Shown: positions 2,071 to 28,239 of the stretch, piece by piece
Layout of the letters: each line of letters begins with the position of its first letter
Position numbering within the stretch: position 1 is the stretch's first letter
Assembly: GCA_951230915.1 (NCBI GenBank)
Contig: OX579635.1
Span: 42,408,001-42,472,000 of the forward strand
DNA length: 64,000 nucleotides
Direction of reading: 5' to 3'
Source of the DNA: Antitrichia curtipendula
Lineage: Eukaryota > Streptophyta > Bryopsida > Hypnales > Leucodontaceae
The notes under the pieces: generated by a model
Databases searched by the model: none
The model's input: the letters and a program-made list of their open reading frames with translations, nothing else
Told to the model about the DNA's origin: nothing
Program-made: the position numbers and the translations under genes

Positions 2071-2095
2071 AAAACACGGGTTTCTTCTAGGGTAC

Positions 2096-3573: not shown

Positions 3574-6541
3574 CTAAGTGGCAGTGGACTCAGTCTCAGA
3601 ATCCTTGTTAGTAGATGAATCTGATGTCTCTCTACCCTCAGATGCTGATCCATCAATAAACTCTAAAACATTTCTAGCGTAAGAAGGTTTACGGGGCTTT
3701 GGAATTGAGCAACCCAAATCCGCAAATGACAATGCCATCTTCTCGGCATACACCGGAAGATGAAAAGACTTCTCTGGACTAATGAGAAGTCTACGTTTCT
3801 TCAACAAAGAAACTGTCGGCATCAATCCCTCACGACTGCAAACACAAATGACACAATGTTAGACTCATAGAGAAAAAAGCACCATGCATTCACAAAATAT
3901 TTATAAATGAAGAAACTTACTTACTGGCTCTATTCTTCCGAGCAAACTTCCGGGGCACCACCGTCATGGCGTCCGGATCTTGGGAGGCCTCAACCGGTGC
4001 TGGTGGTTCTGTCACTTCCGCTGTCACTACAACCGGAGTACTCTTCTTCATGGGTAGAAGGAGGACGTTAAAAATATCTTTGTCCTCCTCCAAAGCCACA
4101 ATGTGGCGGCCTGTGCCGCGACAAGCTGTAATGGATGCACCTGCGATGAAGAATGTAAATGAAATGATTCGAAATCATGTAAATGATATGATTCGACAAT
4201 ATGATAAACAAATGAACTGCAACATCATTGAATTCAAAACTTACCAGTCGATGCTGTGCAGTCAACCACTAAATCTCCTTCACTGGTAGTCCCTTCTATC
4301 AAGAACTGAAAGAATCTAGGGTCCTTCTCGCGAGCCCCCCGCCATGGTATTTTCTCGTTCATCAACATGGTCTCCTCCGTCGTGTAGTTAATGAGCATGT
4401 CGTCCCTTGCGAGGTCTACTTTCGCCTTCTGCATGGACTTTGTGTGCATGTAAGAGAACTTTGATTTTCCATTTGCCCCAAGGTCCTTCACCAAAAGGGT
4501 GATTCCAAACTTCAGAGTCTGCAATCACGAAAACCAAAAAATTGTCAGAAATTAAGAAGTTTCATCACTAATGCCAAATACTTACCAAACGAGCATTAAT
4601 TCAAAAATCATACCGTAGTGCTTTCATCCAATGGGGAGGTCAAGTGCACACGGTTAATGCCCAGCCACTCTTTCTTCACCACCAGCGTCGGGTATGTGAC
4701 ACATAAACCCTTAATGACGTCTTTTGAATCTGCGCAGTACGAGTGGAATACTACCATGCAGCCATGGTCTTGCAAATGGTCCTCTGCAAAAAGAAATGCC
4801 TGTTGAATGTCATCGTACTCCGGGTCTGAGTTCCATGTAGGCACTGCATTTGCTGGAAATGAGACGTCCGGCACGGGCAAATTCTCTTGGCAGTCGAAAA
4901 AAATAAGATCCACTAGTGGCGCACGGCTCACAATGCCGTCGTGTGTGCGTGCTTTTCCTGCTGATGACTACAAAACAAATTTCCTCTAATTAATGAATGA
5001 ATAATCAATCAATAATTGTACAAGTATACAGTGTTCAAGTTCATCATTGCAATACCGAATTACAAAATTTGAAATACTAATACCTTACCTTCTTCATGAA
5101 CTCCATGACCTCATTGTAGCATGTTGCCGTTCTGCATCCACGTTATCCATGACATCCACAATGGAGATGTTCAAGATCAACTCCTCGGAGTTGACCTCAG
5201 CATCATCACCAATCACAATGACATCCGTCCCTTGCGTAACCAAGTCCGTCGTCACCTCAGACAGTACCGCCTTCCTCTTCAGCCGTCTACCAGATCCAGC
5301 TTGCATAGCCGAGCCCTGGTCCACCGTTGAAGTTGCAAGCACTTCGCCACCTCCATCCACCTTCTTCTTCCCTATGCTCTTTCCCTTCCCCTCCAACTCC
5401 GCCTCCTTCTCTTTCTCAGCCAACTTCGCCAAGCGGTCCGCCTCTTTCTTCTCCCTGTTTGCTATGATGTCTTCCAAAGTTGTCTCTTTCTTCTTGTTTG
5501 AAGTAATCCTCCTCGCAATGGCCCTCCTCCTCTTTTGGTCATTGAGGTCAGCGAACTCTGCAACCTCCAAGTCAATCACTCCAATTCCATCAAGTGACTT
5601 CCGAAGGTCTGCTTCCAGAGGATGAGTGAATGTTACATGACAATCCAAATACCACCCTCCTCCTATCAGATGAGCTGTCGTAAACGTCCGAAGCTGGCTT
5701 TGGGTGTACATGCACTCTTCGGAACTGCGGTCCAGCCAAGTAGACAAGAACGGAGGAAGATCCTCCCGAGCGATTGCGGCCTTAACTAGAAGCTCATGCT
5801 TCAAGTAACTGCAATAAACACAAACAGAGACAGAACATTAGGCATGCCGAACAAATAGTCATTCCCATTCACATTTGAATACTCCTACATAAGCATGAGA
5901 TGAAGAATATAGTTGGAACTCAACCTACACTAAATTATAAAGGATTATAATATCCAGTCATCCCTCTATATATTTTCGACTTCATGTAATTAAGAAATAC
6001 GTATGTGGATACTATATTAGAGAATAGTCACATGTACCTAGAACATATTGCTAGTGTGACACTCGCATTGATCAAAGTAAGAGGAATATGTAGGCTGTGA
6101 AAGTCATACCGGAAAATAACTCGTTGAATAGCAAGCTTTGATCCGTCATAACTCGAGAAGGAGTTTGACTTCTTGAATGCATTTGCTCCCTTCATCATGG
6201 GACCAAACCCGTGATCCCAAATTTTCCTCCTCCACCCTTCAATGTACTCGGCGAGTGTCTCTGCCTCAAGCGGGGTTGCCATGTTGACCTGGAGGTTGTC
6301 TTTCTTGGCAATATTTTCGAAATACTCCGACGCACCATTCTCAATTTGTGGCATCAACAATAAATAAGTTCCATTTGAGTGCCTTGGAAGTAAATAAGTA
6401 CTGAAAATGGCAAACCAAATCAATTAAAAAATCAATCCAGATATGCTAATAGTTTAATAAAAACTCATAAATGAACTTACGCCCGCCCACCAGACAAACT
6501 TGTTGAGGAATGGCAACAGTTTCTCCTCTGAAACAGGCTTT
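3574..6541 (-). pseudogene. ParB/DNA methylase-like gene, 3' half (exons 4b-10)
   Basis: Minus-strand exons with GT/AG borders: 6541-6481 (continuing the exon cut by the CACTA element), 6400-6110, 5808-5089, 4967-4614, 4518-4245, 4140-3921 and 3835-3574 (TAG/TAA-side stop at 3574). The order of motifs fits a beta-class amino-methyltransferase. A motif IV-like strand, LVDLIFFDCQEN, comes first; then a strand CMVVFHSY; then motif I-like GDLVVDCTASTGAS split by an intron; then HIVALEED, whose Glu is where the family binds the ribose of S-adenosylmethionine. The catalytic DPPY/SPPW motif is replaced by DCQE, so amino-methylation activity is doubtful. The 5808-5089 exon encodes a lysine/glutamate-rich, probably coiled-coil linker (KKEADRLAKLAEKEKEAELE). 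Lesions: an apparent extra base near 6341-6345 changes frame, and the last part of the 5808-5089 exon needs another frame shift. A Ser/Thr/Glu-rich tail ends the protein. Confidence 0.65.
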
Positions 6542-6544
6542 GCT
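6542..6544. repeat. Target-site duplication GCT, left copy
   Basis: GCT directly precedes the CACTA terminus at 6545 and the same GCT follows the other terminus at 25037-25039. Three base pairs is the duplication length of CACTA elements. Removing the element and one copy restores an open, exactly divisible exon of the methylase-like gene. Confidence 0.85.
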
Positions 6545-6599
6545 CACTAGAAGGAAAAGGGGGGTTTCGTAACCCGCTGTGATGCAACTACGGGCCTAT

Positions 6600-7440
6600 G
6601 CAACTGAATTTCAACTAACATGCAACTAATATGCAACTGCGTCCCTCTGTATTTGCACCTAGTTGCAGTATTAGTCGCGAAGTAGTTGCATAACGAACAG
6701 TGGGGTTACGAAGAAGTAACAGAAGGTATTCTACATCCGCTAGTTCTCTACGTGGACAACTACTTTTTGCGTGGACTCCACGCTGTCAAACGGCAATCGC
6801 GCCAATTACACCTGAACTAACAAACGACTGCACTGCAACTAACAAATGACTGAAATGCAACTAACAAACGACTGGACTGCAACTAACAAACAACTGCACT
6901 GCAACTAACAAACGACTGCACTGCAACTAACAAATGACTGCACTGCAACTAACAAACGACTGGACTGCAACTAACAAACAACTGCACTGCAACTAACAAA
7001 CGACTGCACTGCAACTAACAAATGACTGCACTGCAACTAACAAACGACTGGACTGCAACTAACAAACGACTGCACTGCAACTAACAAACGACTGCACTGC
7101 AACTAACAAACGACTGCACTGCAACTAACAAACGACTGCACTGCAACTAACAAACGACTGCACTACAACTAACAAACTTCTGGGCTGCAACTAACAAACA
7201 ACTGGACTGCAATAGACTACAACTACAAAGCGACTGGGATGCAACTAGAAAACAACTGTATTGCAATTGCCATGTCAACTAGAATGCAATTAGAAGTTCA
7301 CTGAAATGCAACTAGGAAACAACAAGAATGCAACTGCAGAATGACTAGACTTCAATTACAAAATCACTGAAATGCAACTAGAAAACAACAAGAATGCAAC
7401 TGCAGAATGACTAGAATTCAACTACAAAATCACTAAAATT
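6600..7440. repeat. Left subterminal repeat array of the CACTA element (22-bp unit)
   Basis: From about 6807 to 7200 the unit ACTGCACTGCAACTAACAAA plus CG or TG (22 bp) repeats in tandem with few changes. Looser TGCAACT copies extend on both sides. The TGCAACT motif faces the opposite way to the AGTTGCA motifs at the right end, giving the inverted arrangement typical of CACTA subterminal regions, where the TnpA protein binds. Binding itself is inference from the family. Confidence 0.8.
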
Positions 7441-7820
7441 TGACTCCAAGACAAACGTAGTAGTCTGAGTTCAGTCGAAATGCTGTGGAACTTGCTGTTT
7501 ATAAATTGTAGTCACAACCTCGTTTTGCCATATAGTTGTGACCAAATGTTCACCATAAGTTCATTGTGGGATGCAACCTAACATGTGCATGCATGAAGAT
7601 CATCCACAACTAGTTACTGCATACACTTGAATAGACCAAAGAAGTATGGCTTTATAATATTAGAAGTTCTACAATCTGTAATGGTCTGTTTCATTTCTAG
7701 TTGCCTAAACCCATTAATGGAGAGTATGCACATATGCATGCAGTTGTACACTAACTGTATTTGAATTGAAAAACACTGCAAAGTTAGTTTCAAAGTAGGA
7801 AACATTTTCTGCTAATAATT
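7441..7820. other. Non-coding stretch between subterminal repeats and the TnpD gene
   Basis: This interval has no credible open frame. It lies immediately downstream of the TnpD stop codon and probably contains the 3' untranslated region. Confidence 0.4.
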
Positions 7821-8689
7821 TCAATATCCAGCTGATGCTAAGAGATTGTCCTCCTCAGATAACTCTATGGCTCTGACTAAAGACGGGATAGCAGATAGAG
7901 GATGCACATCCTCTGGAGTAGCTAAACCAGAAGCTTGTACAGTGGTGTTGACGAACACATCTGATGTGTCCACAAATTCTCGTCGAGCACGGGCTTCTTT
8001 ATGTAGTACTACTTTCCAACCCTCTTTCTTTACATCATTAGCAAAAAAAACTTGGGTTGCCTGGCTTGAAAATATAAAAGGATCCAGCATCCTGCTCATT
8101 TTGTGGCGGAAGTTTACTACAAGAAATCCAGCTTCATCTCTAATATATGTCGGATTTCCTCGATTGTCTGTTTTCTTCACCCATTCACACTGCATTAATA
8201 TCACAGGGTTGCTGACAGGCCCATAATCTAGTTTCAATATATCTTTCACCAATCCAACACAGGAGTCACTAGAGACATCTCTAAGATCAGAGGCTGGAAT
8301 TTGGAACACAGATGCAACACCACAATCATATGTCTGCAATTGGTTGGAGGCGTTGTCTTCCACTCTGAAATGGTTTCCAAAAGCTTTCATACGAGAATAT
8401 CGAAGTGCCTTCTGTGATGGTTTCCTGGCTAATAACATCCTATCTCTGTCCTCAGGAGTCTGTGCACCGCTGTCATTGTTGCAAACAGCCGTTTGTATCC
8501 ACACCTCAAGGGGTGCTGTGTATGGATCTATCTGACATTCTTCCTTCCACTTCCTGCACGCGTATGAAAGAAGTTAAAGCCAACACTATCAAAATTTGAC
8601 ATGTAGGAACTACTACAACTCTTCAAGCATTTTGTTCAAGTTACCTTTGATTACCTCAGACATTTTGGTCGGCTGTGATAAATTATGAC

Positions 8690-8965
8690 TACCTCAGATA
8701 TTGTGTAGTTACAATAGTTGCACAAAAGAGTCGCAGTGTCCTTGTTGCAGTTTTAGTTGCACAGTACTCGCTTTCTAGTTCCACTGTAGTTGCATTATAG
8801 TTGCATTGTAGTTGCATGTTAGTTGTATTCTAGTTGCATTGTAGTTGCGTTCTAGTTGCATTGTAGTTGCATGTTAGTTGTATTCTAGTTGCAATGTAAT
8901 TGCGTTCTAGTTGCATTGTAGTTGCATGTTAGTTGCATTCTACTTGCCTCTGTGCTACTGAAAGC
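8690..8965. repeat. AGTTGCA motif array inside TnpD intron 2
   Basis: About two dozen copies of TAGTTGCA-like words occur in short order, many as TTGTAGTTGCATGTTAGTTG. The array lies wholly between the splice sites at 9040 and 8553. The orientation is opposite to the left subterminal array. Confidence 0.7.
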
Positions 8966-10084
8966 AGTTGCGGCAAACACTTACATAACTTTGTTCCACT
9001 AATTGGGTTGTATAAGATGATGATACTACTGCAACTTACTTGATGAGTGGCTCCAAAACGGCAACGTTGTTCAACACATAATTGTGCGCTGTATCCCGTA
9101 GCGTAGTAGGCATCACGAACTGCCGACCTGCACCTTCTAGAACTTCTTCAGCATCGCCAAACTCTTCTTCTGCATCCCACACGCGTCTCTTGACCAAATC
9201 AAATCTTTGCAAATACTCTGTCACAAAGCCCAGACCTTCTTCCTTCACGTATCCTTCTGCCATGCAAGCCTCTGGTCTAGCCATGCTCCGAACATAATTC
9301 TTCAATGTTTTCATATACCTTTCAACTGGGTACATCCACCTTGTACTGACAGGCCCACACAAGTCAAGTTCTTGAACCAAGTGATATGGAAGGTGTGTCA
9401 TCATGTCAAAAAAAGACGGTGGGAATTCCATCTCTAATAGTGCCATAGTCTCAGCCACATCTAATTGAAGGGACTCAAAATCTGCTGGATTATAAGCTTT
9501 TGTGCATATTCTCCTAAACACCTTGTACATCCGCATGATGGCCATACGTGGCCCAGGTTTCAATAAACCCCTCATAGCCAATGGCATCAATTGTTGCATT
9601 AACACGTGATAGTCATGCGATTTGAGGCTTCCAAATTTTTTAGCCTTCATATGCTTACCAAATGCCGAGGAGTATCATGAAGGAAGCTTCACAGATGCAA
9701 TAATGTCTTCAAACTGCTCATACTCTTTCTCTGATAGCACATACCCTGCACTTGGTTTCAACATCTTATCAGCTCTGCGAGGGTTTGGTGTCAACCACAA
9801 ATGCCTTCGTATACCTCTTCTTTGAAGATCTTGTCGCACCTTCACAGTATCATTTTTCCCGCTTATTGTTTTTAAGAAATTCTTTGCAAGATTCATCTCG
9901 CAATGCATGACATCCAGCGTGTAGCGGATAAGAAGCCTCTGGACACATGAATAGTACTCTGCAGTTAGTTTTGGATTGACAGAAGACAAAGACAAACAGT
10001 ATGTAGACATATCTGCATCCCAGATGTTTTTCTAATCACTTTAAATCTTCCCAAAAAAATGCTTTGCTACTTTGGTAGGATATC

Positions 10085-10515
10085 ACATTTATTGAAAGCT
10101 GATTGTAGATGCTTCAATGGCGACTACAGACGCTCATGACAAACACTGTACTACCACTGCTCAAAACCAATGCAGCACAATTTCTATGCGAATATTGCAC
10201 GGCTGCTATGCGACTACAACACAACTAATATGTGACTATGACACAACTAATATGTGACTACGGCACAACTGATATGCAACTACGGCACAACTGATATGCA
10301 ACTACCGCACAACTGATATGCAACTACAACACAACTGATATGCAACTACTACACAACTGATATGCAACTACTACACAACTGATATGCAACTACAGAACAA
10401 TTGATATGCAACTACGGCACACCTGATATGCAACTACAGCACAACTAATATGCGACTATGACACAACTAATATGCAACTGCATTACAACTAATATGCAAC
10501 TACATAACACTTGAC
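10085..10515. repeat. TGCAACT motif array inside TnpD intron 1
   Basis: The unit CACAACTGATATGCAACTAC (about 20-21 bp) repeats roughly 15 times with changes such as CTAATATGCGACTATGA. The array is confined to the intron between 10617 and 9938. Confidence 0.7.
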
Positions 10516-12452
10516 ATCCCACTATTCTACTGAACACTTTCACTTCGAGAACTTAGGTTGCGAGTAACCCACGGTTGCCTTTTAGTCCTTTTACTTGAAA
10601 GACTTGAGGATCTCACCTTCCAATAAGGCAATTTGAAAAGAATGCTAGTCCGCTTTACTCCATGCAATTTGGACGGATCCCCTGGAGCACCTTCTCTGTT
10701 CCCTGCTGCCTTCCATGACTTATACTGCTCCGCATATTCCAGTTGTTCCTCCACAGATACAACTTTGGGTTTTCCTCGTGTTTCCAATCGCCCATCAAAG
10801 TGATCTTTCATATGCTCCGAGCGATAAGGATGATCAGCAGGTAACCATCTACGAGTCCCTTGATAAATTTCTTTACATAGCTCCGTTGAATGCTCTGCTC
10901 CTAAGTCAACACCACACCATGTACACCCTGCATATCCTTGGTGTGCAAATCCTCCTACAGTGCCGTATCCAGGATAGTCATGTATTGTCCACATAAGAAC
11001 TGCTCTAAGGTTGAAAGAACGAGCACCAACTTCTTGTACAACATCATATGCTGGCACTCCTTTCCACAATTCCAACAATTCATCCACCAAGGGTTCTAGA
11101 TACACATCAAATACTTCCGCTGTTACAGATTGCTTTCCAGGAATCAACAAAGCTAACATCATGAAGAATTTTTTGGTGCACAACCAAGGGGGCAAATTAT
11201 AATTTAGCAAGGTTACTGGCCAAGTAGACCAACTTGACTTGGTCTGCTTGAATGGATTCACTCCATCTGCGGCCAGAGCAAAATGGACATTTCGAGAGTC
11301 TTCATCAAAGCTTGGATCCACATTGTCGTGAAAGTGGCGCCATGCTTTTGAATCGCATGGATGTTGCACTAAATTGTCTCCCCCTGGACGATTACTTCCA
11401 TTCTCTGAATGCCACAGTAACAATTTTGAGAGTTCTGGGCTGCGAAACATGCGCTGCAATCTTGGGATGATAGGGAAGTGCCTCAACACTTTCACTGGGA
11501 ACTTCTTCCTAATCTCATCCCTGTATCTTGGACCATTACACTTTGGACAACGTATAAGCTCTCTAAAATCGCCTCTGAAGAGTACACATCCTTTCTCACA
11601 TGCATGGATGCTATTATAACCCAATCCTAATTTCCCTGTTAGTCTTTGAGCTGCGTAGTAATTCTTAGGCAACGTATTGCCTTGTGGCAGGATGTGTCCT
11701 TCCAAAAGAGTAAACAATTCATCAGCAAAGTTGTTACTCACCCCATGGACAGTACACACATTCATGATAAGAATGGTGGCTGCCAATTTAGTACATTGAG
11801 CACCTTCATATAGTGGATGCAAAGCCTCTTCCAAGATGTGAGCATCAAAATTGATTTGACCTTGAAGCTCTGGCTGCTCATTGGTATCACCTATGGGTTC
11901 TTCCTGTGGCAACGCATTTTCGACCTCCGCTTCAGCTCCTTCATTTTCAGCAGAATTTGCCGTACCCCCACTTGCTCTACAAATGCATTCGTTGTTTACG
12001 CAGTCTGCTACTGTAAAGGCCTCCACTACTGTGTCATGTAGTCGTTCTTCCATAGCCTCTGTGTCATGTACCTGTTCTTCCATGGTCTCTGAGTCTCTGA
12101 AGTCTTGGAACACATTGGAGAGCATGTTTCTAGTGTCCACTTCATTATCAATTTGTACTTCTTGACTTCCTGTTGAATTCCAGAAATCAGCCTTCCATTC
12201 TTCATCTGATGTCTCCCTACTCCCAGGTCCTCGCCACACCCTAAAATTTGAATTCCTCCCATATCGAAGTAGATGCTGCCCCACTTTGGAAACACTGAAC
12301 TTCCTGGCGCCCTTACATTTACAACACGGGCAATTCAATCTTTGCAAATTTAACAACGTAGCTCAGCGATACTCTCTCACCCAGAGTCTATCATCACGTA
12401 ATTTTTGTCGCCGCTCCTGTCCGACTAATACGTGGTCATTTCTTGTATCCAT

Positions 12453-13434
12453 CCCCCTTGATAGACCTCCAATCTTGCGCAGTGACTACAGTTGCTTCAA
12501 GAATGCAGAAGTACCCTAGAGATGGAGTACTAAACTAACATAAGAAGACCCCCAAGTAAGGTAGCCTTCTATTAGAAACCCTAAACCTTCTCAAATAGCC
12601 TTGAATCTTTAGAAGAACACAGAAAATCATGACACAAAATGAAAACAAAGCGCATAATGTTACTTCTTCTGCTGTGAAAGATATGAGTCGCTTTCGGAGG
12701 TTGCCTACAGCAACGCCTCGAGCGAACTTCTCTCCAAGAGGCGGCCTTGCCTTCTCCGACGGTGCTCTGGAGTCTTCAGGGGTAGAAGCGGTATTTCCAT
12801 GATGTTTCATTCATGCCCGTGGATGAAAGTTGGCTCATCACACCAGTGAAAGATCCGGCGCTTTCTTCCTTCACTAACGTAGATGAAATGAATCAAACCC
12901 TGCTTGAGCCCGTCTAAATTCAGTTAGCAAGGAACGAGCTCTCTCAAGTGCCTGCCTGCCAAGGTCAGACTCCCTTTTCTTGTTTCGCCGCTGCTGAAGC
13001 GATCATCCGCTTGGGAATTTGGATGCTTGTGTTTCCTAGGAATTCGTCAGTTTTTTGTTAATTTCTTGTCAACTTCTGGAATTTCTTTGAGAATTTGGCC
13101 GCTCCTACGACAAAGAATATAGATCAGCCCACTGGTGGTGCAAACGGTTTAAACTGAACCCTAATCTCTCGTTGTCATGAATTCTCGTTCGATTCGAGGC
13201 TGTCCTTTGCCGGGATTCTCGGATAAGCAGGGGTTCGTGGTTTTGGTGCAGGACAGACACCATTTTGAGGGGCGCAGAGGATTCCTAGGTCCGTGGATTT
13301 TAGAACTTCCAGTTCTGCTATTGTCACTCAAGGCCTCACCTAAACCCTGGATTCTTAAAACACCGTTGTTTTCGTGCGAATTATACCGCAGCTGTACTGC
13401 CCGAGTGCTCCTGGAGAAGATCATCAAAACCCTG
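12453..13434. promoter_or_regulatory. Central divergent-promoter region of the CACTA element, TnpD side
   Basis: This lies upstream of the TnpD start. No open frame with recognisable content is present. The part from about 13190 to 13434 is a diverged copy of sequence at about 20095-20240 (shared: GTGGATTTTAGAACTTCCAG, then TCACTCAAGGCCTCA). A transcription start could not be placed. Confidence 0.4.
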
Positions 13435-16400
13435 TGTGAGCGCTTATTTACCCACCCTTGGTAAATAAGTAAACACAACCAGGTTCTTAGTATTTCGAGA
13501 AATTCTAACCTATGGGTGTCCTAACGTCGGTCCATTGTGCCTTCCAAGCAATGGATCTTTTTTTCTAAGTCCCTAAATACCAACAATTGCGATCAAACTC
13601 AAAAAGAATGCAACAATTACAATTTCTACCAAAACTACTTCAATCAAAGAGGCCACGGTGATTTTTGAACGAAACTAGCTACAGTCTAAATTTAGCAATC
13701 CTAAGTTGTAGAGAATCTCATGCCATTTCTAAAAACATAAAATTCATCCCTATCCCCTTCTCCTAGCAAAAGATATCAACGGATGAAGTTTTAGCCTTTC
13801 CGGGGCAAATTAAACTTCATCCATGACTTTGGACTTGTTCCCTATTTCAATTAATCGTTAAATTTAAACCCTAGTTTGATATAGTGAAACTCTAACTAAA
13901 TTCTAAGTTTAGTCTTAATTGGACTAATCTAAGTTGACTTCATCCGTTTCCTGGTCCAAATTTCATCCTTCTATTTCTTCTAGGTAACTTGGTATTTCTC
14001 AAAGCTTGAACTACGATTGGAACACTTGAAGTTGTCACTCTAACATTCTAATGCTAACTTTCTTCCTTAATCACGTTTGGACACCCTAATTCTATCCCCC
14101 CTTGCTCTTTGAAGCTTGGAATGGATTCTGGTCAGTTGCTATTTTTAGTACTTTGAAATTTGTTCCTCAAAGAGGCTAATTCAAGCTTTCCAAAATGGTC
14201 TCTAACTTGATTTTAAACTTATCCTAGCAAAAGTTATTGATGGATGAAGTTTGACCGCTAATCGGTTCCTCAAACTTCATCCGTTGATTACTACTAATCC
14301 TACTTTTGAATTTTACTTTTAATTCCACTCCTATGATTCAGATTACTTCTACTTGCTAATTTTCTAATTAACTTCCACTTGGACACTTCTAAATCTTTTT
14401 CATCCGATTTTTACTCTAAACTTCATCCAAAGCTAACTCCTTCGTTTTAGATCGAAATTCTAAGTTTAAGGTGTTTTCGGAGAGCTCTAATCATAATCTA
14501 CCAACTTTGACAGATAAACTTGGGAAAAATCCTAATTTAGACTCTCTGAATCGACCTTGAAGTTCCGGCTAAGTATTTAGTTGCTAATCTAAACAATTCC
14601 AAAAGAAAGGTAAAAGTTAGTAAGTTACCTCAAGTTGAGCTTCATCCGCCGTGTTGTAGATGAGCTCATCCAAATATTCTTGGTCCGCCATGGTTGAGAG
14701 TGCTTTTGTATTTTTGCTCACCGCTTAAAGTTTGGGTTCTAATACAAATTTTCCTATTCTTTCCTTTTCTTTCTACACTATTCTTACTCAATTATTTAGT
14801 TATCCCAAAGGTTGACTAGTTGGAATAAATAATTGACTCTTGACTCCTAAATAATAATTGACTCCTATCTTCTTCTAAGTCAATTATTATTTTATCCAAA
14901 AACTAATGGTCCAAATTGACTCTTCAAGATTTCTTAGCAATTCTCCCTAATCCTAATTTCCCTTCAAACTTCTAACTCCCCATTCTCAACTCATTCTACA
15001 ATTGTGGTTCTCAAGAGCTTGAAGTGTACTATGAGAGTTTTAAGTGGTTTTTCCTTCTATGATGTTTTTTGGGCTCTCCTTTGGTGATGGAAACGTTGCT
15101 AATTGAGACTTTTCTCTTCCTATTTCTATAATCTCTAATGGTTTCTTCTCCCTTTTGACTTCTTACAAGTTCCTATCCAATTTTGAATTCGAATTGCAAC
15201 TTCAATCTTAGCTTGAAAAGATTGAAATTGGCATCAAATTCCTAATTTGGTTTTGGGAGAAGGTATTCCCAAAATTCTGACTTCCCTATGAGAACTCGAA
15301 CCTGTCCAGGCAGCTCAAAACCTGGAGCACCGCCCCTCCAGTCGGAAGCCCTCAATCGCAAGCCAGCATCGGGACCTCAGTCGGAAGCCCAGTCGCGAGC
15401 CCCTCTCCCGTACTCCCGGTCAGTTGCTGCCACGTGGCGAGGCGCCACTGGCCAGGACCCTCAGCCGCAAGCCGACGTCGAAACCCTTCTCCCGTACCCC
15501 CGGTCAATTGCTGCCACGTGGCGAGGCGTCACTGGTCCAGTCCCGGTGGCTGGCCAGAGGCGCTGACTGGACAGGGCCGGTGACCGGACAGGGCCGGTTT
15601 TGGTCAGGCTCTCGTCCTGGTCAGGCTCTCGTTCTGTCAGGCTCTTGTTCTGGTCAGGCTCTCGTCATGGTTAGGCTTCCGATTACTCCCAACTGGTGGG
15701 ATTTAACCACCCACAGGTTTGGTGATGGTTTTCCCCCTAACTCTTACAAAATACTTTGAAGATGATTTCTAAGACTTGACAAGCTCAAGCTTCACTTAAA
15801 ATTCTAGTCCTTCCAACAACTAGTGGTCTCTTTAAAACATCCTGAGTCAAAGCTTCGCCGTTGTTCTAAAAATCACTAAAAATCACACAAGCTAGGACCA
15901 AGGGGGTCCAAAGCTTCGCCGTATTTCAAAAATCACAAAAAATATTCCACAACTAAGACCAAGGAGGTACAAAGCTTCGCCGTACAAGGGCAATATATAA
16001 AAAAAAACAATAAGTGTTAGTTTAACGAGGATACTCCTACTACGTGTGTTAGTGGAGGTTAGTACTTCAAGACTTCTAAACACAAGTTAGTAATGCTCAA
16101 ATCTACCCAAGAACTTAGAATTAGAGCACTAGAGGTTCCCCCAAGCGGCAAGCCGGACATAAAGAGGATTCCCTAGGATTAGTACAAGGACTTCAAAAGT
16201 TCAACAAAGACACAAGTAGTACAAAAAAAACACAAGAAAACCAAGGCAATCTTTGAAGGGACCCCAATGTCCTTCAAAGAGAGCTTGAGAAAGAGTGACA
16301 ATGGAGCTAAAAATGCTCCAAAAACACAAGAATTTGGCAACGTGGCCTAAAATGGCCAAATCCAACTAAATGGACCCAAAACTTGAAAAGAGGTTCAAAA

Positions 16401-17709
16401 TGAACCTAAAGGGGTGAAATGAGAGGAAAATGAGAGCCCTTATATAGTTTTCCAAGGCCCTCACCCCCCTCTCTTTTCCTACATGGTAATCTTATCAATT
16501 AAGATTTTCATCCTAATCTTCTAGATTTTCACTTTCTACGCTGGATTAAAACTCTAACTTTTGGAGGTTTACTCCAAATCACAAACGGATTGCGCCATTG
16601 GCTTCAGAAGGCCATTTTTAGTCCAAGGGTCCCCCTACCCCCTATTTTGACGCTAAAAACTCAACAAAACTTAGCGCTAACTGAACACCAAATTAAGGTA
16701 AAAACCCAGTTTTTGGAGTTTGACCTTTCTGAGAAAAGTAACTAGCCTAAGTTCTCTAAAAGGTATAAGGGAGTAAGAAAAGACCCAATTTTGACCTCAT
16801 TCCGATTCCGTATGCTCCCGGGACGCCGGTCAACTTTCCCGCATTCTTTAAATTTGTCAATTTCCGGGGAATCTTGCCGGTTCGGGTACTTCTGACTATC
16901 GGAATGTCTTGAAACTTGTTGGGGCATCTTATTAACATAAAAGATGCTATTCTAATTTTTAGTGAGATTTTACCGCAACCTGGGTAATTTCCAAGAATTT
17001 CCCATCGTAGGTTTTGGCGGTTGACCGTTCGGAAAGACATTTTCTGCAAGTTAGAAAATTCCGAAACTTTTTATGGAACCTCTCATGGAATTCCACAAAG
17101 GATGTGCAAGCTAACATTCTTACTTTGCACAAGGGTCGGAGGAGAACCAAATCTTGACTTCTCCTTCAAAATCCGGCCACCAGGGAATCTTCTTTGTCGG
17201 GGGGAATCTTGGCAAACCGATTTCGCCGTTGATCTCCAAATGTGATTTCCACCCCAAAATGACATGCGGCATCCTCCGATTCCTCCCAGGCGTCGGTCAT
17301 GAGGTTGTAACTCCTGCAGGCTAACAATTCGGGGTTTCTGCTATTTCGTCGGTAAAATGGGGAAAGTGAAACCTATCGTCGGGAATGGATTATCTGACCT
17401 CAACGGTGTTCCTTCGGACCAAATCTAGCCCTAAGAGGTTACCTAGCCCTCGGTTTGGCAGTTTAAGCCCTATTTACCAAAAACCCGTTTTAATCACTCG
17501 GAATCCCGATTTTAGTCTATTTACAATGGGAATTGGGTTTAGTTTGAGGGGATTATAGATATAAGTGACCAAATGCTATATGGGTATGTGCCACACCTAT
17601 TTTGGTCTTACACTCTTTTTAGGTCTTTTTACGTTTAAACTACACTCAAAATCATAATAATTAACAAAAAGAAAAGCGTGAGTCCCGAGTGACGAATCGG
17701 GGGCTCACA
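13435..17709. mobile_element. LTR-type insertion (probable solo LTR or non-autonomous element), 4275 bp
   Basis: The insertion begins TGTGAGC (13435) and ends GCTCACA (17709), that is TG...CA with a 7-bp terminal inverted repeat. It is flanked on both sides by CCCTG (13430-13434 and 17710-17714), a 5-bp target duplication of LTR-retrotransposon length. The second copy of the host sequence at 20095-20350 lacks the insert at the corresponding place, which supports the boundaries. No gag, protease, reverse transcriptase or integrase was recognised in any frame, and no second internal copy of the termini was found. A very long solo LTR is therefore the simplest reading; a large non-autonomous derivative is the alternative. 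Confidence 0.7.
15285..15690. repeat. GC-rich short-repeat segment within the LTR-type insertion
   Basis: This is much more GC-rich than its surroundings. A block containing CGGTCAGTTGCTGCCACGTG and GCGAGGCG(C/T)CACTGG occurs twice about 95 bp apart (near 15417 and 15510). It is followed by four or five copies of TGGTCAGGCTCTCGT. The open frames across it are produced by the repeats and show no known domain. Confidence 0.55.
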
Positions 17710-20475
17710 CCCTGAAACACCGTTGCAGGGTGCGGCTGCAGTACTCAACCTCGACTGTAGAAATCGGGGCTTACGGTTGGTTGGTTGGGTCTCGCCATGT
17801 CGTCTCCCTCCCAGATTTACCTGTCCGCGCGCTGAGTCTCCACTGCCAGGTAAGCCGAACTTCCTCATTTCAATTCCTCACTGCAGCATGATATCTTTTC
17901 TGTACATTGAAGTTAAATTTGGAAGCTCTTTGGATATGTTGGAAGTTGTGGGCGTTGTGGGTTTACGGTTCCTGCTGGAGTTGGAGGTTTACTCGATTGG
18001 AGGGGGAAGCTCAGATATTGGGGTTTAGGGTGTACGATGTTGTGGTTCAGGTTTAGGGTTTTTCTTCAGTTGCAATATCTGTTGCAGCTTTCTTGCTGCC
18101 TTTAGAAGAGTTTGTACGGGATTAGAGAATATTAGAGATTGATACTTTCACATTTGAGGGTTTAGGGGACTCCGTTCCAATCCAGTTTTCTGAATCTGAA
18201 GTCATTTGAAGTTGTTGAATAACTTGAGGTCAAGCGCTGCAGTTGTTCTTTCTTTTGTGCTTGGTGGCTTGAGAGTTCCGGGTTGAGCAGTGTGACGAAT
18301 CGAGTAGACATAGATGCAAGGGAGCAGAAGGCCATTATTTTTTTTACTGAAGCTAAATATTAAGGCTCCATACATCGGCGGTGGTTGATGCAGGGAACTA
18401 ATGAGTGTTTTTTTCTCTCAGAACCGTGAGGGCTGGGCAATTTGGAGGGGTTTCCGAAAAACAGGAGGAGATCATTTTCAGTTAACGGGGAGCGGAAGAT
18501 CTCAAGACAGGGATACATATGTAGAACTTTTGTGTGGACTGAATTGAACTTCTTCTCTCTAAAATTGGAAGCGGCAGACCTTGGAATTATTGGTGCTGAA
18601 GGCCGGGAAGGAGGTATGAAATCAGACAAGCAATTGGACAGACTTGAGGATATTACCAGTCATACATGATTCTTTGTCTCTGCTGAAGTTGAGTTTCATT
18701 GTGTTCATTGGACGTTGCTGATGTTGAGGTTGGGGTTGGTGAGCCAAACTGGAATTTCTCTTCCTGCCTTTCAGTTTAGCAAATGCTCAGAACTAAGTCT
18801 GCCTGACATTGGGGCAAGCAAGTTCTGATCGGTTGTCATGCATCTTGTTGATTTCCGTTGTCTTAATTAGTTGGGTAGATAGTACAGGGCAGGAGGCTCA
18901 GCCAGTTTGCGATTTACGATTGCCTTGCCATGGGCAAGTGATCTAGTGCGCCACAACAACGGCTTGGGTTCTTGGTCTCTCTATAATTATTGCTTTAGGA
19001 TGACAGAGTGTCTTGTGAATCATTTGCTCAGGTCTGGTCTGGTATTTTAGTTTTGAATTGGAGAAGTGATTATGCTCGACTTGCAATTTTTTATGTGTGG
19101 CGATGTCCCATCTTGCAGATTCGTGGGGTACATAATTTTCTTGGGCGAGAACAAGGAAGACTGTTTGTAGACATAGTACTGTAGCAGTGGTGGTGTCGTC
19201 CTGGGCACACCGAGCTTCTTGAGAGAGCCGAGCTTCTTGAGAGAGCCGAGCTTCTTGAGAGAGCCAAGAGACCCTTTCCTTGTTCTCCGACGTCGGTACT
19301 CCACGGCAAGGGCCGCTGCATTCTTGAGGAACGCAGTGGAGGCTGCCCCGCTCGCGGAAGGCCGGATTCAAGCTCTCTTGCGAATTTCAACTAGTGGGTT
19401 GTGTAGATGCTTGTCGATCGTGGTGAAGTCTCCGCTCTCTTGGGCTTATCAACAAATTAAACTGAAGCCCTCTCTGAGATATATTCATGCAGAAGAGCAG
19501 CTTGTATTGTGAGTTGTTGTGGTACTTGTCACACGGTACTTGTCACAGGTTTCCTCGTTTGGCGTTACGCATCAGGCTTTGGGAAACAGGTTTCCCTGTC
19601 TGGCGTTACGCATCACGCTTTGGGCACGCGGTCTTGGTGGTCTGGGAGTTTAGGGTTTCAATTTTGGTGTGCGGAAGTAGATATGCTCGATCTTGGATAC
19701 TAATCTATGGTGATATTCTCTCTTGCAGAGTCGTGAAGCCATTGAGGGGTACAAAAGCATGCAAGCTCCGTGCGAATTCTCACCTCAAGGTACAGGTGGC
19801 TGCATTTGCATCTTTGTCGGTATGGAACCTTGGGATTGAGACGTCTGTCTTGGTCAATTGATTCGTTTGAGTGTGCCTGACATTGGGGCAAGAAGTTCTG
19901 ATCTGTTGTTATGCAATTTGTTGATCTCCGTTGTCGTATACAGTTGGGTTGATTCTATAGGGTAGGACTTAGCCAGTTTGCGATTTAAGGTTGCTTTAGT
20001 GACCTAGATGTAACCACCGCAACAACGGCTTGGGTTCTTGGTCTCTTTGTAATTATTGCCTTACGGTGACAACGTCATGTGAATCATTTGCGAAGAGGAT
20101 TGCTTAGCTTGTGGATTTTAGAACTTCCAGTTCTGGTGTCACTCAAGGCCTCAAGGGATCCTTGGATTCTCAAATTCGAACTATCTGCCTTCATGTACAA
20201 CAGCTATCTTGAGGCTCCTGAAAAAGACTATCTGAATCCTAAAGCGCCGTTGCAAAGTGCGACTTTCACTGCTCAGCCTCGACTGTAGAAATCGGGTCTT
20301 AGGGTCTTAGGGTTGGTTGGTGAGGCTGACGCTTTTGGTGTCTCGCCATGTCCTCTTGCTGCCAGTATCTGCTGCAGGGTTCTTGTAAGGGATGGAGAAT
20401 CTTAGAGATTGATACTTTCACAGTTCAATTTTCTCTGTCTACGTTCCATTTAAGTTTTGCTGAGTCTGAAGTCAC
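17710..20475. promoter_or_regulatory. Central region of the CACTA element upstream of TnpA, with internal duplications
   Basis: No protein-coding content was recognised. Diverged direct duplications are visible: 18800-18990 matches 19870-20065 (CCTGACATTGGGGCAAG, CAACAACGGCTTGGGTTCTT), 17715-17800 matches 20243-20350 (CCTCGACTGTAGAAATCGGG), and 18070-18220 matches 20365-20490 (TTAGAGATTGATACTTTCAC). It probably contains the TnpA promoter and leader; exact start sites are not visible. Confidence 0.45.
19207..19268. repeat. 18-bp tandem repeat, about 3.4 copies
   Basis: The unit CGAGCTTCTTGAGAGAGC repeats head to tail, with the last copy diverging to CAAGAG. A second small tandem pair of about 42 bp (TGGCGTTACGCATCA core) lies at 19555-19630. 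Confidence 0.8.
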
Positions 20476-20489
20476 TTGAAGTTGTTCAT

Positions 20490-20800
20490 GTAGTCGCAAG
20501 TAGCAAATTGATTGCATTGTAGTTGTAGTTGCAAGTTGGTTGCATTGCAGTGGCAAGTTGGTTGCATTGCAGTGGCAAGTTGGTTGCATTGCAGTCGCAG
20601 GTTGGTTGCATTGCAATCGCAAGTTGGTTGCATTGCAGTCGCAAGTTGGTTGCATTGCAGTCGCAAGTTGGTTGCATTGGAGTCGCAAGTTGGTTGCATT
20701 GTAGTTGTGACTTAGTTGCAGAATGGTTGACCCTGAGTTGTATATCACTAGTTGCAATGAAGTCGCAAATTAGTTGCAGTGTAGTTGCAGCTTAGGTTAA
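20490..20800. repeat. GTTGCA motif array upstream of TnpA
   Basis: The unit AGTCGCAAGTTGGTTGCATT (about 22 bp with variants) repeats about 9-10 times, ending some 75 bp before the TnpA start codon. The same core word AGTTGCA/GTTGCA occurs at both element ends, so this could be an autoregulatory site for TnpA. That is inference. Confidence 0.7.
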
Positions 20801-20875
20801 TTTCAGTCGCAAAGTCTGAGCAGTTGGTCATTCAATTTCAACGTTCTAACTGTTCATTCCTTTCAATAGAGTGAA

Positions 20876-23608
20876 ATGGACAGAGGAGCTTCAATAGCGG
20901 GGCAGAAGAAGACGAAAGAACGGCAAACTACTGGTTTGCCATTGGCCACTCGTAAGAGTGTAGAAGTTGTTAGCAAAGACACAGTACCTACCATTGTTCA
21001 TGGAAGTTCTGAAGATATCACTTCTGAGTATGAGCACTCCAAACCAAGTGATTGTGACAGCAGCAAAGAAGGTGAGTCAAACACATTTTATAGAAATGAG
21101 TTTGCTTTACGGAAAGTCAAATTTTCAATGACTAGTATTTACTGTTTTATACATTTTGTGTCATTCTACTAATTTTGTTGTTTTTCTAGGGAATGAAGAG
21201 GACCTATTTGGAAAGGATACTGAAGAAGCATTGGGTAGTTGTCGAAAACGTCAAAGACGTCAGTCAGACAGCAGAGAGCGTTCAGCAAGGCGCAACAAAT
21301 CCCAGAAATCTGAGAAGACTTCAGTAGAGAGAAGCGGGAGTGCCCGCAAACCGAACGAAGTCCACGTGAACTCAAACGGTGAAATCAGTACCTCTTCTAC
21401 CGGGAAGAGTGCGTGGGATCAAGGCATGAGGGCGTATGCTCCCTTGGTACTTGATATGAGTGTCATCAACTGGAATGACCACAAACCTCAAACTTTGCAA
21501 AAACTCCGCACCATTTTGGACGAGGACTTTGAGTATTTGGAGCACCCCCTTAACGGTAAGGGTTTCCGCAGTGCAGTGCAAAGATTTTTGAAGGCGGAAT
21601 GTCACCGGTTGAAGAAATTATTTGATTCAGGAGAAGATGCTGAATGCCCAGTGCATATTTTTCCTGAGCAATGGAAGCGGCTGAAGGCATACTGGGAGGG
21701 AGGTGCCTACGTGAAGAAGTCTGAGCAGATGTCCAATATGAGAAAACAAGTGCAGAATCCCTCTAAGCACGGTAGACGAGGAAAGGCAGGCGATCTCGTT
21801 GATGTGGTGAGCCTCTAATCGAAGAATTTTTGTAGTCTTGCATTTCAATCAATTTGTTACTGCTTTGTTCTATCTTTTCCAATCATTCTAACAACAGTGT
21901 GGCATTGTTGATGTTATATCAGTCAGGAAAAAGGGCAAGAAGTCCAGGACTCACAGAACCATCAGGATCATCGGTAAGTTTTGGTAATTTGTTATTGGTC
22001 GCTGAAGTTGCAATTTTAAGATGAAGAAGTCATAGGAGTCCTGGAGACGCATGGAAGTTGTACGTGTAGTTGTAGAGTAGTCTTTAGAAGCTCTTGCAAC
22101 TAGTATGCAGCCGGTATGCAACTGGAATACAATTAGTATGCAACTGACATGTAACTAACATGCAACTGGTATGCAACTTAATTGCAACTAATATGCAACT
22201 GACATGCAACTGGTATGCAACTGAATTGCAACTAGTATGCAACTTAATTGCAACTAATATGCAACTGACATGCAACTAATATGCAACTGGTATGCAACTG
22301 AATTGCAACTAGTATGCAACTAGTATGCAACTAACATGCAACTGGTAGCCACGTTCACAACGTTGCGGCTCTTATATTATGCGTTTGCATTTGTCATGTC
22401 TAATCATTGTTCTTATGTGTGTCATAGGTGGTGACTTCAGGCTTGCAAGGAAAATTAACCGCCATGGAAAGCAGATTACTGGATATGGAGAAGTTTAGGG
22501 TTGAAGTCCTAGCTAGTACAGATCGCAATACGAAGGCTGTGGAAGGGTTGCAAGAGACATTGTTGAAGTTTCTGCAGAAAGGAAACACTGTTGAAGGCAC
22601 CCATGAAGTATTAACCAACCCTGTTGAAGACATCAAGGATTCCAGTGATCCATGGGATTTCGATGGATCCCCTACTTTAGAGCCTATTGTTGACCTGGTG
22701 TGGAAATCAACTGCTCCTCCTGACCTGCAGGTTGAAGAACACAAGCGGGCATCTTCTGAAGACAACAACAAGAACAAGAAAGAGAGGGATCCAAAGGAGA
22801 CAGATGGAGAGCAAGAGCAACCTCTTGGAGATCCACAAAAAAAAGATAGTGGAGAATGCGGTGGGAACAATGACACCTTCACACTTCAACCTGAAGTTCA
22901 AGGCACAGCTAATGCCACAACCAAACATACAGAATTTTCTATGCAACTCCGGAGAGGGAAGGATCGAGAGGTGAGGGAAAATAACGTAATATGTGTTTTA
23001 CACTTTTCCAAGTTCTTATAAGTTTTTACATGCCTCTAATATGGAGCAAAACTGTGGTATACAGGTGCAGCAGCCATTTGCCAAGAAGGAGATCTTAAGG
23101 AGGACGAAGCAACCTATTCAAAATCGGAAGGTGAAACCTCCACCAAAATTCAAAGTGAGTAACCTACATGTCTAATCTCTTGCAAATGTCCTTGTTGACA
23201 TTGTTTCCTTCACTCATCACAGACTTTGTTGAATAAATGTTATCCTTTACTCATGAATGTTTTGGTTTTATGTGATGGCAGTTTGAGGTTGGACAACAAG
23301 TTTCACTTTTGAATCCATCAGCCCCAAAGCAAGTGGTGGCATCCGGAACAATTACTGCTATTGGTGGTGGAGGTGGCCCACAGATGTATCATGGGTTCCA
23401 AATTTCAAAGGGATGGTACAGACTTGACATTGCACATGCACCAGGAGGGTTTGTTGATTTGATGCATCCAAATCCAGCTGGAGATGAATACAAGTTGAAA
23501 GATGTGGTGGGAAGTAGTACACTTTGGAATGAGCAATTTGTAGTCTTCATTGCCCGTGTTGCAGGCGAGATTCCTTCAGACTGCCAGGGGAAAGTTGGAG
23601 GCAAATGA
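20876..23608 (+). CDS. CACTA TnpA-type protein (Ptta/En/Spm Transposase_24-like), six exons, frame intact
   Basis: Exons with consistent phases: 20876-21071, 21190-21806, 21898-21973, 22441-22970, 23065-23154 and 23282-23608. These sum to 1836 bases, or 611 residues, without a stop. The N-terminus is low-complexity and rich in Ser, Lys and Arg (RKRQRRQSDSRERSARRNKS). Exon 2 carries the plant Ptta/En/Spm pattern, with KSAWDQGMRAYAPLVLDM and later FPEQWKRLKAYWEGGAYVKK followed by a basic stretch. Exon 4 begins with a short probable coiled coil (LTAMESRLLDMEKF). The last exon (FEVGQQVSLLNPSAPKQVVA, then FQISKGWYRLDI) resembles the C-terminal domain of these plant proteins. TnpA binds subterminal motifs and works with TnpD in excision. 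It is divergent from the TnpD gene. The start was chosen as the first ATG after the motif array. Confidence 0.75.
22075..22350. repeat. TGCAACT motif array inside a TnpA intron
   Basis: Roughly 20 copies of (T)ATGCAACT separated by GGT, GAAT, AGT or GACA words lie wholly between the splice sites at 21973 and 22441. They are oriented like the left subterminal array. Confidence 0.7.
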
Positions 23609-23739
23609 TCACCAATTCTGTTTATCCTAATTGTGCAAGTAGTTTGTTCTTCCTATAGTAGTCGTAGTGGATGCAGTTGTTTTGTAGAAAATCAACTTTG
23701 TTGATGCTTGTATAGGAGTAGTTAGAGTTGCAAGCCATA

Positions 23740-24560
23740 GCCAGACAGTTGCACATGAGTTGCGTAGACCAGTTGTATATGATCTGCAGCACACTATATT
23801 TTATAGTTCATACAGCAAATCTGTTAGTTGTATTCAAGTCGACTATAAGTTGCAAGTAAGTTGCAAACCAGTTGCAAAGAAGTTGCTCATCAGTTGCAAA
23901 CTAGTTGTATGCGTGTCGTTGTGCGTTGCATATTAGTTGCAAAATCGTTGCATAGAGGTTGATCGTAAGTTGCATATTAGTTGCAAAATAGTTGCATAGA
24001 AGTTGGCCATAAGTTGCACAGTAGTTGCAAAATAGTTGCATAGAAGTTGGCCATAAGTTGCATATTAGTTGCAAAATAGTTGCATAGAAGTTGGCCATAA
24101 GTTGCACAGTAGTTGCACACCAGTTGCATAGAAGTTGATCCTAAGTTGCATATTAGTTGCAGAATAGTTGCATAGAAGTTGGCCATAAGTTGCACAATAG
24201 TTGCACAACAGTTGCATAGAAGTTGATTCTAAGTTGCATATTAGTTGCAAAATAGTTGCATAGAAGTTGGCCATAAGTTGCACAGTAGTTGCACAACAGT
24301 TGCATAGAAGTTGTTCCTAAGTTGCATATTAGTTGCAAAATAGTTGCATAGAAGTTGATCATAAGTTGCGTATTAGTTGCACAACAGTTGCATAGAAGTT
24401 GATCATAAGTCGCGTATTAGTTGCAAAATAGTTGCGTAGAAGTTGGTCATAAGTTGCACAGTAGGTGTACAACAGTTGCATATAAGTTGCACAGTAGTTG
24501 CACAACAGTTGAACATAAGTTGCACAGTAGTTGTACAACAGTTGCATATAAGTTGCAAAT
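23740..24560. repeat. Right subterminal repeat array of the CACTA element (88-bp higher-order unit)
   Basis: AGTTGCA occurs at about 11- or 22-bp spacing, for example ATAGTTGCATAGAAGTTGGC followed by CATAAGTTGCA. Blocks repeat every 88 bp between about 23930 and 24370. The motif orientation is inverted relative to the left end. Short minus-strand open frames across it are repeat artefacts. Confidence 0.8.
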
Positions 24561-25017
24561 TAGCATTCTGTGACCAACGATGCAGCGTGAAATGAAGGTC
24601 GATCCTAGATTTTTGAAATCTACAACTTCCCTAGATATCTGAAATCTATAAATTTCCTATATTTTGTAAATCACATGGTCTGAAATCTAAATTTGTCATA
24701 GATTTTTGAAATCTACAAATGTTGTAGATCTCTATAATCTATACTAGTTGTAGATGTCACTTTGTATATGAAGTTGAACATATTCCTCAATATCCCGCGC
24801 AAATAATACCACGTAGGAAACCACGTAGGAAGAATTCATCGATCATCGTCCTCTGGCAATCCAAAAATGTGACGATTTATGCAACTACGATGCAACTGAA
24901 AAAGTGTCCGGTTGAACTACGGGCTCATCCATCCCTCTATCACTATCACCCAGTTGCATCGCAGTTGCATAAACCCATTCGCGACTAAAAACGTAGTTGC
25001 ATTGTAGTTGGCAAACT
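24561..25017. other. Right end of the CACTA element between repeats and terminus
   Basis: It contains a small cluster of GAAATCTA/TAGATTT words (24600-24760), then further TGCAACT/AGTTGCA copies (24880-25010) close to the terminus. No gene is present. Confidence 0.5.
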
Positions 25018-25036
25018 CCCCCGTTTTCTTCTAGTG

Positions 25037-25039
25037 GCT
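25037..25039. repeat. Target-site duplication GCT, right copy
   Basis: Matches GCT at 6542-6544 on the other side of the CACTA element. Confidence 0.85.
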
Positions 25040-26563
25040 GGGAATCGTCTCGCATCTCGAGAGGGCATGGAGGAATTCCACCACTTCAGAAGTTTCAACT
25101 TCTGTGCTGCCGTTGTATTGCAAGTTGCAATCATCTGTAGCTTCTCCAGGGTCATTTTGGGGACCTCATTTGTGGTCCACTGCTTCTCAATCTGCGAAAT
25201 CGAAACTTCTCAAGTGAACAACCGAACATAAAATCCAATTACAAGAACTGTTAACATTGATAGTTTGCAATTACTTCTCACCTCCTCTAGAAATCCGGGA
25301 CCATGAGCTGGGTTTGCAACCGCAATCAACTTCCCCATTTTCACCTGCAACTTTGAGGCTCTCTCCTTCGCTCCCAATCTCATGGCATTCGCAACTCCTT
25401 CTACCGATTTCTCCTCAATCGGTGTGCCCTCGTTGTATTTTCGCACTGCAGCATCCGATGCCTGTGCAATCTCTTGCTGCAAATACATGTCATCAACAAC
25501 CATTTCAACAAACAAAGGCCACTATCGTAAAGAAGTTCAAGGTGGAAGTACTCAATATTAGATCCCAGACCATCAGAGAAGCTCACCCGGAATAGAAATG
25601 TCGTAAACACTTCCACAGGCATAGAAAACCACGTCTTCCTCCCCGCGGCCTGGGCAACACACCGTTGCCTCTCCAAAGGCCTTAACATCTCCTTAAATCG
25701 CTCCAAGGAGAGAAGACCATACTTCTGCACGCGGTGAAGAGTGTGCACAAGATTGGACTTCACGTGAGAGTCCTCTGTTGATCTGAAACGGAATGTAAAA
25801 GTTTAGTGACGTGAATCATGTACGTAATAACACATACTCCTAAATAATAGATCAATAGAGGATATATATACAACATAAGAAGCAATAATGCTTACTTGTT
25901 CACATCATGCATCACCTGCATGACCAATTCGGTTCTCCCCTTCGTATCCAAGATAATATTGTCAACTACAAAGTGAAATAGCGGGTTCGCCGTATGTAGC
26001 CTAGAAATGTGATTCATCCAAACTTGAAGGCGATGATTCCCATTGCATACGAAGAACTTCAAGTTCTTCATGAATAGAAGCTCTGGAACCGACTCAAGAT
26101 ATTTCTTGAAATTCAGGTTCGCTTTCTTCCACCATGTATCCCATCCGTTCATCTCCTCCTCCGTGAAGTCCGAGCTCTCACTAGCCTCATTGGTTATGGA
26201 CACGTAGAACACCGCTGCGCCTTCTCGGTACCCAAAGATGAACTCCTGTTCTAGTTTGACGAGGTCGGATGCAAGCGTTGGCCTCACCATTGGCATGGAC
26301 ACAAGTCTGCATAGTGGAATGCGCAGTCGGGAGAGTTTCTCTGGCTTCATCCTCAAACTCGCAATGGTGGACACCGAGTCCACCTTCTGCCATCTCCGAA
26401 GCTCATCTTCAAGCAATTATTTGGCCTCATCGTCATCATCCACAACATCCATAGCCAAATCCTCACCATCGTCACCTCCAATCTCTGGCTGTGTCAAATC
26501 ATCAGTAGGTGGTGTCACCGTATGTCTCTCAGCCTGGGTCCGACTAATAGGTGACTCTTCCAT
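25037..26563 (-). pseudogene. ParB/DNA methylase-like gene, 5' half (exons 1-4a)
   Basis: Exons by GT/AG borders: 26563-25896, 25782-25587, 25476-25282 and 25191-25037. The last is cut by the CACTA element and continues at 6541. With one GCT copy removed, the joined exon is 216 bases with no stop. Exon 1 has LKFFVCNGNHRLQVW, matching the ParB/Srx-like signature (V-x-G-N-H-R) used by ParB-type nuclease domains. In bacteria and phages this domain often precedes an N4/N6 DNA methylase. The following exons (FGYREG upstream, then WFSMPVEVFTTFLFR and MRLGAKERASKLQVKMGKLI) show no recognised domain. A TAA at 26419-26417 interrupts exon 1 after an acidic N-terminal segment (DVVDDDDEAK). ATG 26563 directly follows a possible acceptor, so upstream exons may exist. 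Together with the insertion this makes the copy non-functional. Confidence 0.65.
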
Positions 26564-26725
26564 CTGCAAAATGGACGTCCACGAAAATCATAAAGTCCGA
26601 CAATTCATAATGAAATGCATGGAATATGCTGTGCTAGTTCACGTATGAAATATGACAGATGTCAATGAAACACAGATAAAAAATCAAAATGTACAAGTGA
26701 TATCACTAACAAATTATATGAATTC

Positions 26726-27187: not shown

Positions 27188-27432
27188 CTAAACAACACAC
27201 AATGTAAACTGTATCAATAAAACCAAAAAACTAGTAACATGAGAATGCTTATTAAGAGGACACAATAATGATTTAAGAGAAATTCAAAATCATAATTAAA
27301 ACTCTTAGAAATACAATTAGGATTATATTCACGACAAGTGCATATTAGATTAAACATAGATGGACATTTGAAAAGCATACCCCTTTTAGATTTGAAATGT
27401 CTACTTCGAGTGCTTTAACGACCAAGTTCCAA

Positions 27433-28216: not shown

Positions 28217-28239
28217 CGACTAGTGCAACCATCAATCTG

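Follow-up and report, generated by a model that had tools for sequence, protein, structure and literature searches.

Gene structure and the transposon within it

We analysed a 64,000-nt stretch of the Antitrichia curtipendula genome (GCA_951230915.1, contig OX579635.1, positions 42,408,001-42,472,000; hereafter the window), whose minus strand carries a ParB-like coding region followed, beyond an intervening transposon, by a region resembling beta-class DNA methylases. An original prediction made from the letters of this DNA had proposed a single gene over these 23 kb, with about ten introns and proper intron borders. The peptides that it quoted do lie on the minus strand where it had placed them: VCNGNHRLQVW (25892-26416 open reading frame, ORF), LVDLIFFDCQEN and CMVVFHSY (4967-4614), GDLVVDCTAST (4518-4245) and GASITACRGTGRHIVALEED (4140-3921). 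Exons 2-12 run from 26563 to 3574 and are parted by nine firm GT..AG introns of 80-301 bp (intron GC 25-40% versus exon GC 43-54%). A tenth, tentative intron would part exon 1 from exon 2, and the 18.5-kb gap separating the ParB-like exons from the rest, which had been counted among the introns, is a CACTA transposon inside an exon. The exons are as follows.

26978..27187, minus strand: exon 1 (tentative), 70 amino acids (aa), an ATG-started open frame before a weak donor GTAGAG
25896..26563, minus strand: exon 2, acidic N-terminus, then the ParB/sulfiredoxin-type fold with GNHR as its GxxR motif
25587..25782, minus strand: exon 3, GT..AG borders, frame continuing from exon 2
25282..25476, minus strand: exon 4, GT..AG borders, open
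25037..25191, minus strand: exon 5, left piece of the transposon-split exon, open to the target-site copy AGC and in frame with exon 6
6481..6544, minus strand: exon 6, right piece of the transposon-split exon, open, with a phase 0 GTAAGT donor at its end
6110..6400, minus strand: exon 7, carrying a frame break
5089..5808, minus strand: exon 8, conserved central region and charged linker, with a frame break near its end
4614..4967, minus strand: exon 9, methylase-like domain, motif IV region, with DCQE where DPPY is expected
4245..4518, minus strand: exon 10, methylase-like domain as far as motif I
3921..4140, minus strand: exon 11, last part of motif I, with the acidic ALEED
3574..3835, minus strand: exon 12, C-terminal tail and stop

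Relatives of these exons from public sequence data are cited by number (P0001 and so on). A glutamine, as would arise from an acceptor CAG, stands at the exon 2 start position in 3 of 9 relatives inspected by eye (P0003, P0014, P0031), so an upstream exon is to be expected. Sequence resembling exon 3 comes after exon 2 in P0002, P0008 and P0117, and the YLKHELL..WYLDC stretch of exon 8 can be aligned with P0001.

The insertion and the lesions of this copy are listed below.

26417..26419, minus strand: in-frame stop TAA in exon 2, between ..DDDEAK and LLEDEL..; relative P0003 is open at the same place
6545..25036, minus strand: CACTA (En/Spm) transposon, 18,492 bp, within a coding exon
25037..25039, minus strand: AGC target-site duplication, upstream copy
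6542..6544, minus strand: AGC target-site duplication, downstream copy
10527..12362, minus strand: tnp2 transposase ORF of the CACTA element (PF02992 E=1.1e-65, PF13963 E=3e-6)
7821..8573, minus strand: DUF4216 ORF of the CACTA element (PF13952 E=1.4e-13)

The element opens with CACTAGAAGAAAACGGGGG and closes with its inverted counterpart ..CCCCCCTTTTCCTTCTAGTG; its terminal repeats read CACTAGAAG(A/G)AAA(C/A)GGGGG, and arrays of 22- and 44-bp units lie inside it. With CACTA ends, a 3-bp duplication, tnp2 and DUF4216, it is an ordinary member of the CACTA/En-Spm transposons, and it is the interrupter rather than the ParB–methylase gene itself. Joined with a single AGC, its flanks make up a 72-codon open exon whose end falls at an in-phase (phase 0) GTAAGT donor, which argues that the insertion struck coding sequence and that both halves belong to one gene. 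Opposite-strand ORFs also lie within the element (21132-23021, plus strand), the first with a weak Transposase_24 match (E=0.022), perhaps a second, TNPA-like gene. A further, partial CACTA-type ORF lies at the window's left edge (3-566, plus strand; DUF4216 E=1.1e-5, slightly under the Pfam cut-off).

Decay extends beyond the insertion. In exon 7, the phase-0 frame is shut after 19 codons and the remainder is open in a different frame, and a second frame break lies close to the end of exon 8. Of the 72 positions in the ParB-like exon with 90% conservation or more, the window differs at 6 (median 1 for 121 sequences, leave-one-out); 10 of 120 relatives differ at more of them, making this a weak sign of decay. 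The stop, the two frame breaks and the CACTA insertion together indicate a pseudogene, and most of 3574-26563 is CACTA element; a continuous gene over this span, as originally proposed, is not supported. Of the identity of the ParB and methylase domains and of the pseudogene status of this copy we are highly confident.

Relatives of the two halves

The canonical ParB motif is GERR, where the window has GNHR. The ParB-like half and its relatives show the features of a ParB/sulfiredoxin (Srx) fold, and the relatives number at least 120 in public sequence data, among the matches listed (homologue set at E<1e-36). In this P motif, GxxR (Box II in a survey, PMC12704722), G is present in 119/120 and R in 114/120 relatives. 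Unbroken relatives of exon 2 are widespread and end at the same splice site as in the window. A profile check against PF02195, which the original prediction had put forward, gave no match in this half, and the family is absent from the 21 Pfam families matched by the 121 members, where DUF1015 occurs in 9, DndB in 1 and DUF6551 in 1. Profile A4 searched against Protein Data Bank (PDB) sequences returned chance-looking matches alone (best E 0.13). The moss gene differs from the ParB/Noc/KorB CTPase domain and from sulfiredoxin/SerK in leaving PF02195 unmatched, in its GNHR motif and in its fusion to a methylase-like domain.

For the methylase-like half, motif IV precedes motif I, the order of beta-class enzymes that had been proposed together with a preceding ParB-type fold. 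Exons 9-11 matched the NCBIfam CcrM model (E=1.5e-4, 20.8 bits, far under the model cut-off of 830) and PHROG methyltransferases (best E 9.3e-7). The original prediction would have been refuted had the 4967-3921 exons resembled no class I methyltransferase; in the profile searches they resemble those of the beta class that act on DNA. The second profile check, against PF01555, fell short of the gathering score of 26.7 bits both for the window (E=0.021, 15.2 bits) and for P0001 (E=4e-4, 20.8 bits). P0001, a protein of 596 aa with 39% identity across 97% of the 244-aa methylase query region (E=3e-37), was the only relative returned by the methylase-region search, whose length window of 0.55-1.75 x 697 aa bars exon-sized ORFs, so that this count says little. 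Joined exons 7-12 as query gave nothing at E<=0.01 among 7,996 scored candidates, perhaps with low-complexity words filling the list. Searches of viral_contigs and genome_contigs, in which the patterns for either half came from alignments so that distant relatives can escape, confirmed 0/142 and 0/36 pattern matches for the methylase half.

A profile built from the window and P0001 found, in the PDB set, HpDpnA (E=0.0012) and CcrM (E=0.0019; 20-243, near-whole domain), followed by a DARPin (0.043) and by weak matches to the N4-cytosine methylase chains 8s9m/8s9n (0.66-0.73); the window methylase sequence alone reached E no better than 0.36. Searching phages with the window methylase half (tblastn) gave 4 records at E 2e-5 to 8e-5, the other 8 of the 12 among the matches listed lying at 0.2 to 2. 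Three of the four are Brochothrix phage DNA methylases (4e-5, 8e-5, 8e-5), and the fourth is an unannotated stretch (2e-5) in which an ORF reads as a methylase with DPPY; P0001 alone reached 0.3 at best against phage records. Aligned by hhalign with four phage methylases, which had been chosen from the window's own matches, the methylase half gave a probability of 97.6% over 73 columns around motif I (0.1% for an unrelated ParB-half profile as control). Judged from these sequence comparisons, the motif and domain similarity is greater than chance would give.

The motif IV region of exon 9 was aligned with VDLIFADPPYNL of CcrM and with ADLIIADLPESL of P0001. CcrM and HpDpnA (6pbd, 5hfj) share with the moss gene the order of motif IV and motif I, and for CcrM a near-whole-domain alignment, but these adenine methylases have DPPY, which for CcrM aligns to D(C/L)(Q/P)E in the profile: the window reads DCQE and P0001 DLPE, neither conforming to the canonical (D/N/S)PP(Y/F/W), and the motif I glycines are reduced. 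Since motif IV is altered in P0001 as well, its degeneracy is not merely decay of the window copy (n = 2). As predicted, the DPPY-type motif is lost and the cofactor-site Asp and Glu are kept. An AlphaFold2 model of P0001 was of low confidence (predicted local distance difference test score, pLDDT, 37).

Competing readings and genomic surroundings

We estimate a probability of about 0.6 that the window holds the dead copy of a moss gene in which a ParB/sulfiredoxin-type fold, a central region and a CcrM-like domain with a degenerate motif IV were joined. That both domains stood in one polypeptide is suggested by their common strand and by the in-frame exon across the insertion, in the broken window copy only. 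Weighing against this reading, every relative found carries one half only and none carries both; the ParB half has no match in phage records; and its pattern matches were confirmed in 0/95 cases in viral_contigs and 0/156 in genome_contigs, in searches open to the same escape of distant relatives.

The strongest alternative, which we regard as unlikely, is that the ParB–methylase gene is cargo or product of a DNA transposon amplified in moss genomes, with a second transposon striking it here. The surroundings of the locus are rich in transposable elements, and relatives of exon 2 are many: one group (single linkage, 70% identity) holds 20 proteins among the matches listed, all from 'ena' contigs ranging in length from 14 to 619 kb, and its member P0031 represents 48 member sequences. 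Such counts may instead reflect repeated sampling of the same loci or several species, and no convincing terminal inverted repeats surround the gene (best pairs, 1-3600 versus 26600-36000, 26 bp at 85-88%). Plant transposons can carry introns, so the introns are not decisive.

That the family is instead an active DNA amino-methyltransferase, writing N6-methyladenine (6mA) or N4-methylcytosine (4mC) in moss with an altered motif IV (D-x-x-E) that works or is compensated, seems to us improbable. The window and P0001 both retain the Asp residues of motifs IV and I as well as the acidic ALEED, but the motif IV aromatic residue, which stacks on the flipped base and is the fourth of (D/N/S)PP(Y/F/W), is Glu in 2/2, and G-x-G of motif I is cut to STG in both. 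Still more doubtful is that the transposon lined up two unrelated adjacent genes, ParB-like and methylase-like: the one-half relatives would fit it, but the shared strand and the exact one-AGC join into a single 72-codon open exon with an in-phase donor speak against it. Chance resemblance, or non-coding DNA read as a gene, would agree with neither half having a Pfam match over cut-off, but we count it as refuted by two independent homologue sets at E<1e-36 and by the methylase matches.

The predicted plant host is borne out by a psaF reading frame (44715-45455), whose best match is 8htu_F (441.7 bits, full length), ahead of 9lut_F (385.6) and of shorter chains (6l35_F 322.5 bits, 7ksq_F 320.7 bits), with 266 the next score after these; we take 8htu, 6l35, 7xqp and 7ksq to be Physcomitrium patens (moss) entries. 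A moss is thus the most likely host, and the alga Chara, an earlier candidate, was rejected on this PsaF comparison. Other features of the window are the following.

27432-29172: short inverted repeats clustered round GGGGTAGC..GAGCTACCCC, upstream of exon 1
29560-32938: 93-bp tandem array, ~37 copies, also with 273- and 366-bp higher-order units
40369-40938, plus strand: legume-lectin domain ORF (E=1.2e-6), perhaps with the next ORF the remains of a lectin receptor kinase
41448-41762: ORF kinase-like by eye, with no Pfam match at E<=0.01
42833-43752 and 49213-50124: ~0.9-kb repeat in two inverted copies, 75% alike, either side of the psaF frame
46178-47127 and 58141-59092: direct repeat of ~0.95 kb, 81% alike
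51449-52573, plus strand: two transposase ORFs that share a frame, a single stop codon lying between them (Plant_tran E=7e-15 and 2e-64; DDE_Tnp_4), presumably PIF/Harbinger-type
56889-57855: 22-bp tandem array, ~44 copies; both strands carry long open frames
60109-61179, minus strand: NAM-associated-domain ORF (E=2.4e-7)

Possible origin and role

Phage fusions of a ParB-CTPase with an N6_N4 methyltransferase are known from the survey cited above (PMC12704722), and, as described there, they resemble the moss gene in joining a ParB-type fold to a DNA methylase domain and in the GxxR P motif. Compared with these fusions (PMC12704722), the moss gene is eukaryotic and intron-split and has a long central region, a charged linker and a degenerate motif IV. 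Its methylase half is distantly similar to phage records, whereas its ParB half has no detectable similarity to them. Given the known phage fusions, a phage- or bacteria-type ancestor would be the simplest source of the architecture. As our searches of phage records and of viral and genome contigs yielded no direct prokaryote or viral relative of the ParB half, and for the methylase half distant ones only, transfer is something that we infer, and the phage- or prokaryote-like origin first proposed is not established.

To our knowledge, eukaryotic ParB-type folds are known mainly as sulfiredoxin, and eukaryotic beta-class amino-methylases are few. The N4-cytosine methylase of bdelloid rotifers is named N4CMT. 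That enzyme (PMC8885841) is reportedly linked to 4mC and is, like the moss protein, of a bacterial amino-methylase type within a eukaryote, the moss family differing in its non-canonical motif and its added ParB-type fold. In agreement with the original prediction, our searches of the open-licence PubMed Central (PMC) literature turned up, among the papers listed, no account of plant proteins that combine ParB and methylase parts.

Under the mechanism that we propose, a phage- or bacteria-type ParB–methylase fusion would have become a spliced moss gene family, whose proteins might still bind nucleotide via GNHR, and perhaps S-adenosylmethionine (SAM), would no longer methylate amino groups, and could serve either as DNA-binding factors switched by nucleotide or as non-catalytic methylase partners. 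Given a conserved GNHR and a degenerate motif IV, we would expect the proteins to bind DNA in a nucleotide-dependent manner, or to work as partners, but not to methylate. We advance such a non-catalytic nucleotide switch tentatively, at clearly less than even odds. A little less probable again, and no more than possible in our judgement, is the broader proposal that in mosses domesticated phage-type ParB–methylase proteins, encoded by spliced genes, have expanded into a family and have given up methylation in favour of a role in DNA binding or chromatin under a nucleotide switch.

The window illustrates the death of such a gene, through an 18.5-kb CACTA insertion, a stop and frame breaks. If the proposal is true, a plant family fusing both domains, with its conserved splice site and the non-canonical motif in both methylase halves found, would clearly exemplify the repurposing of a DNA-modification protein from bacteria or phages, and a ParB-like nucleotide switch acting on eukaryotic chromatin would become a question testable in a transformable moss.

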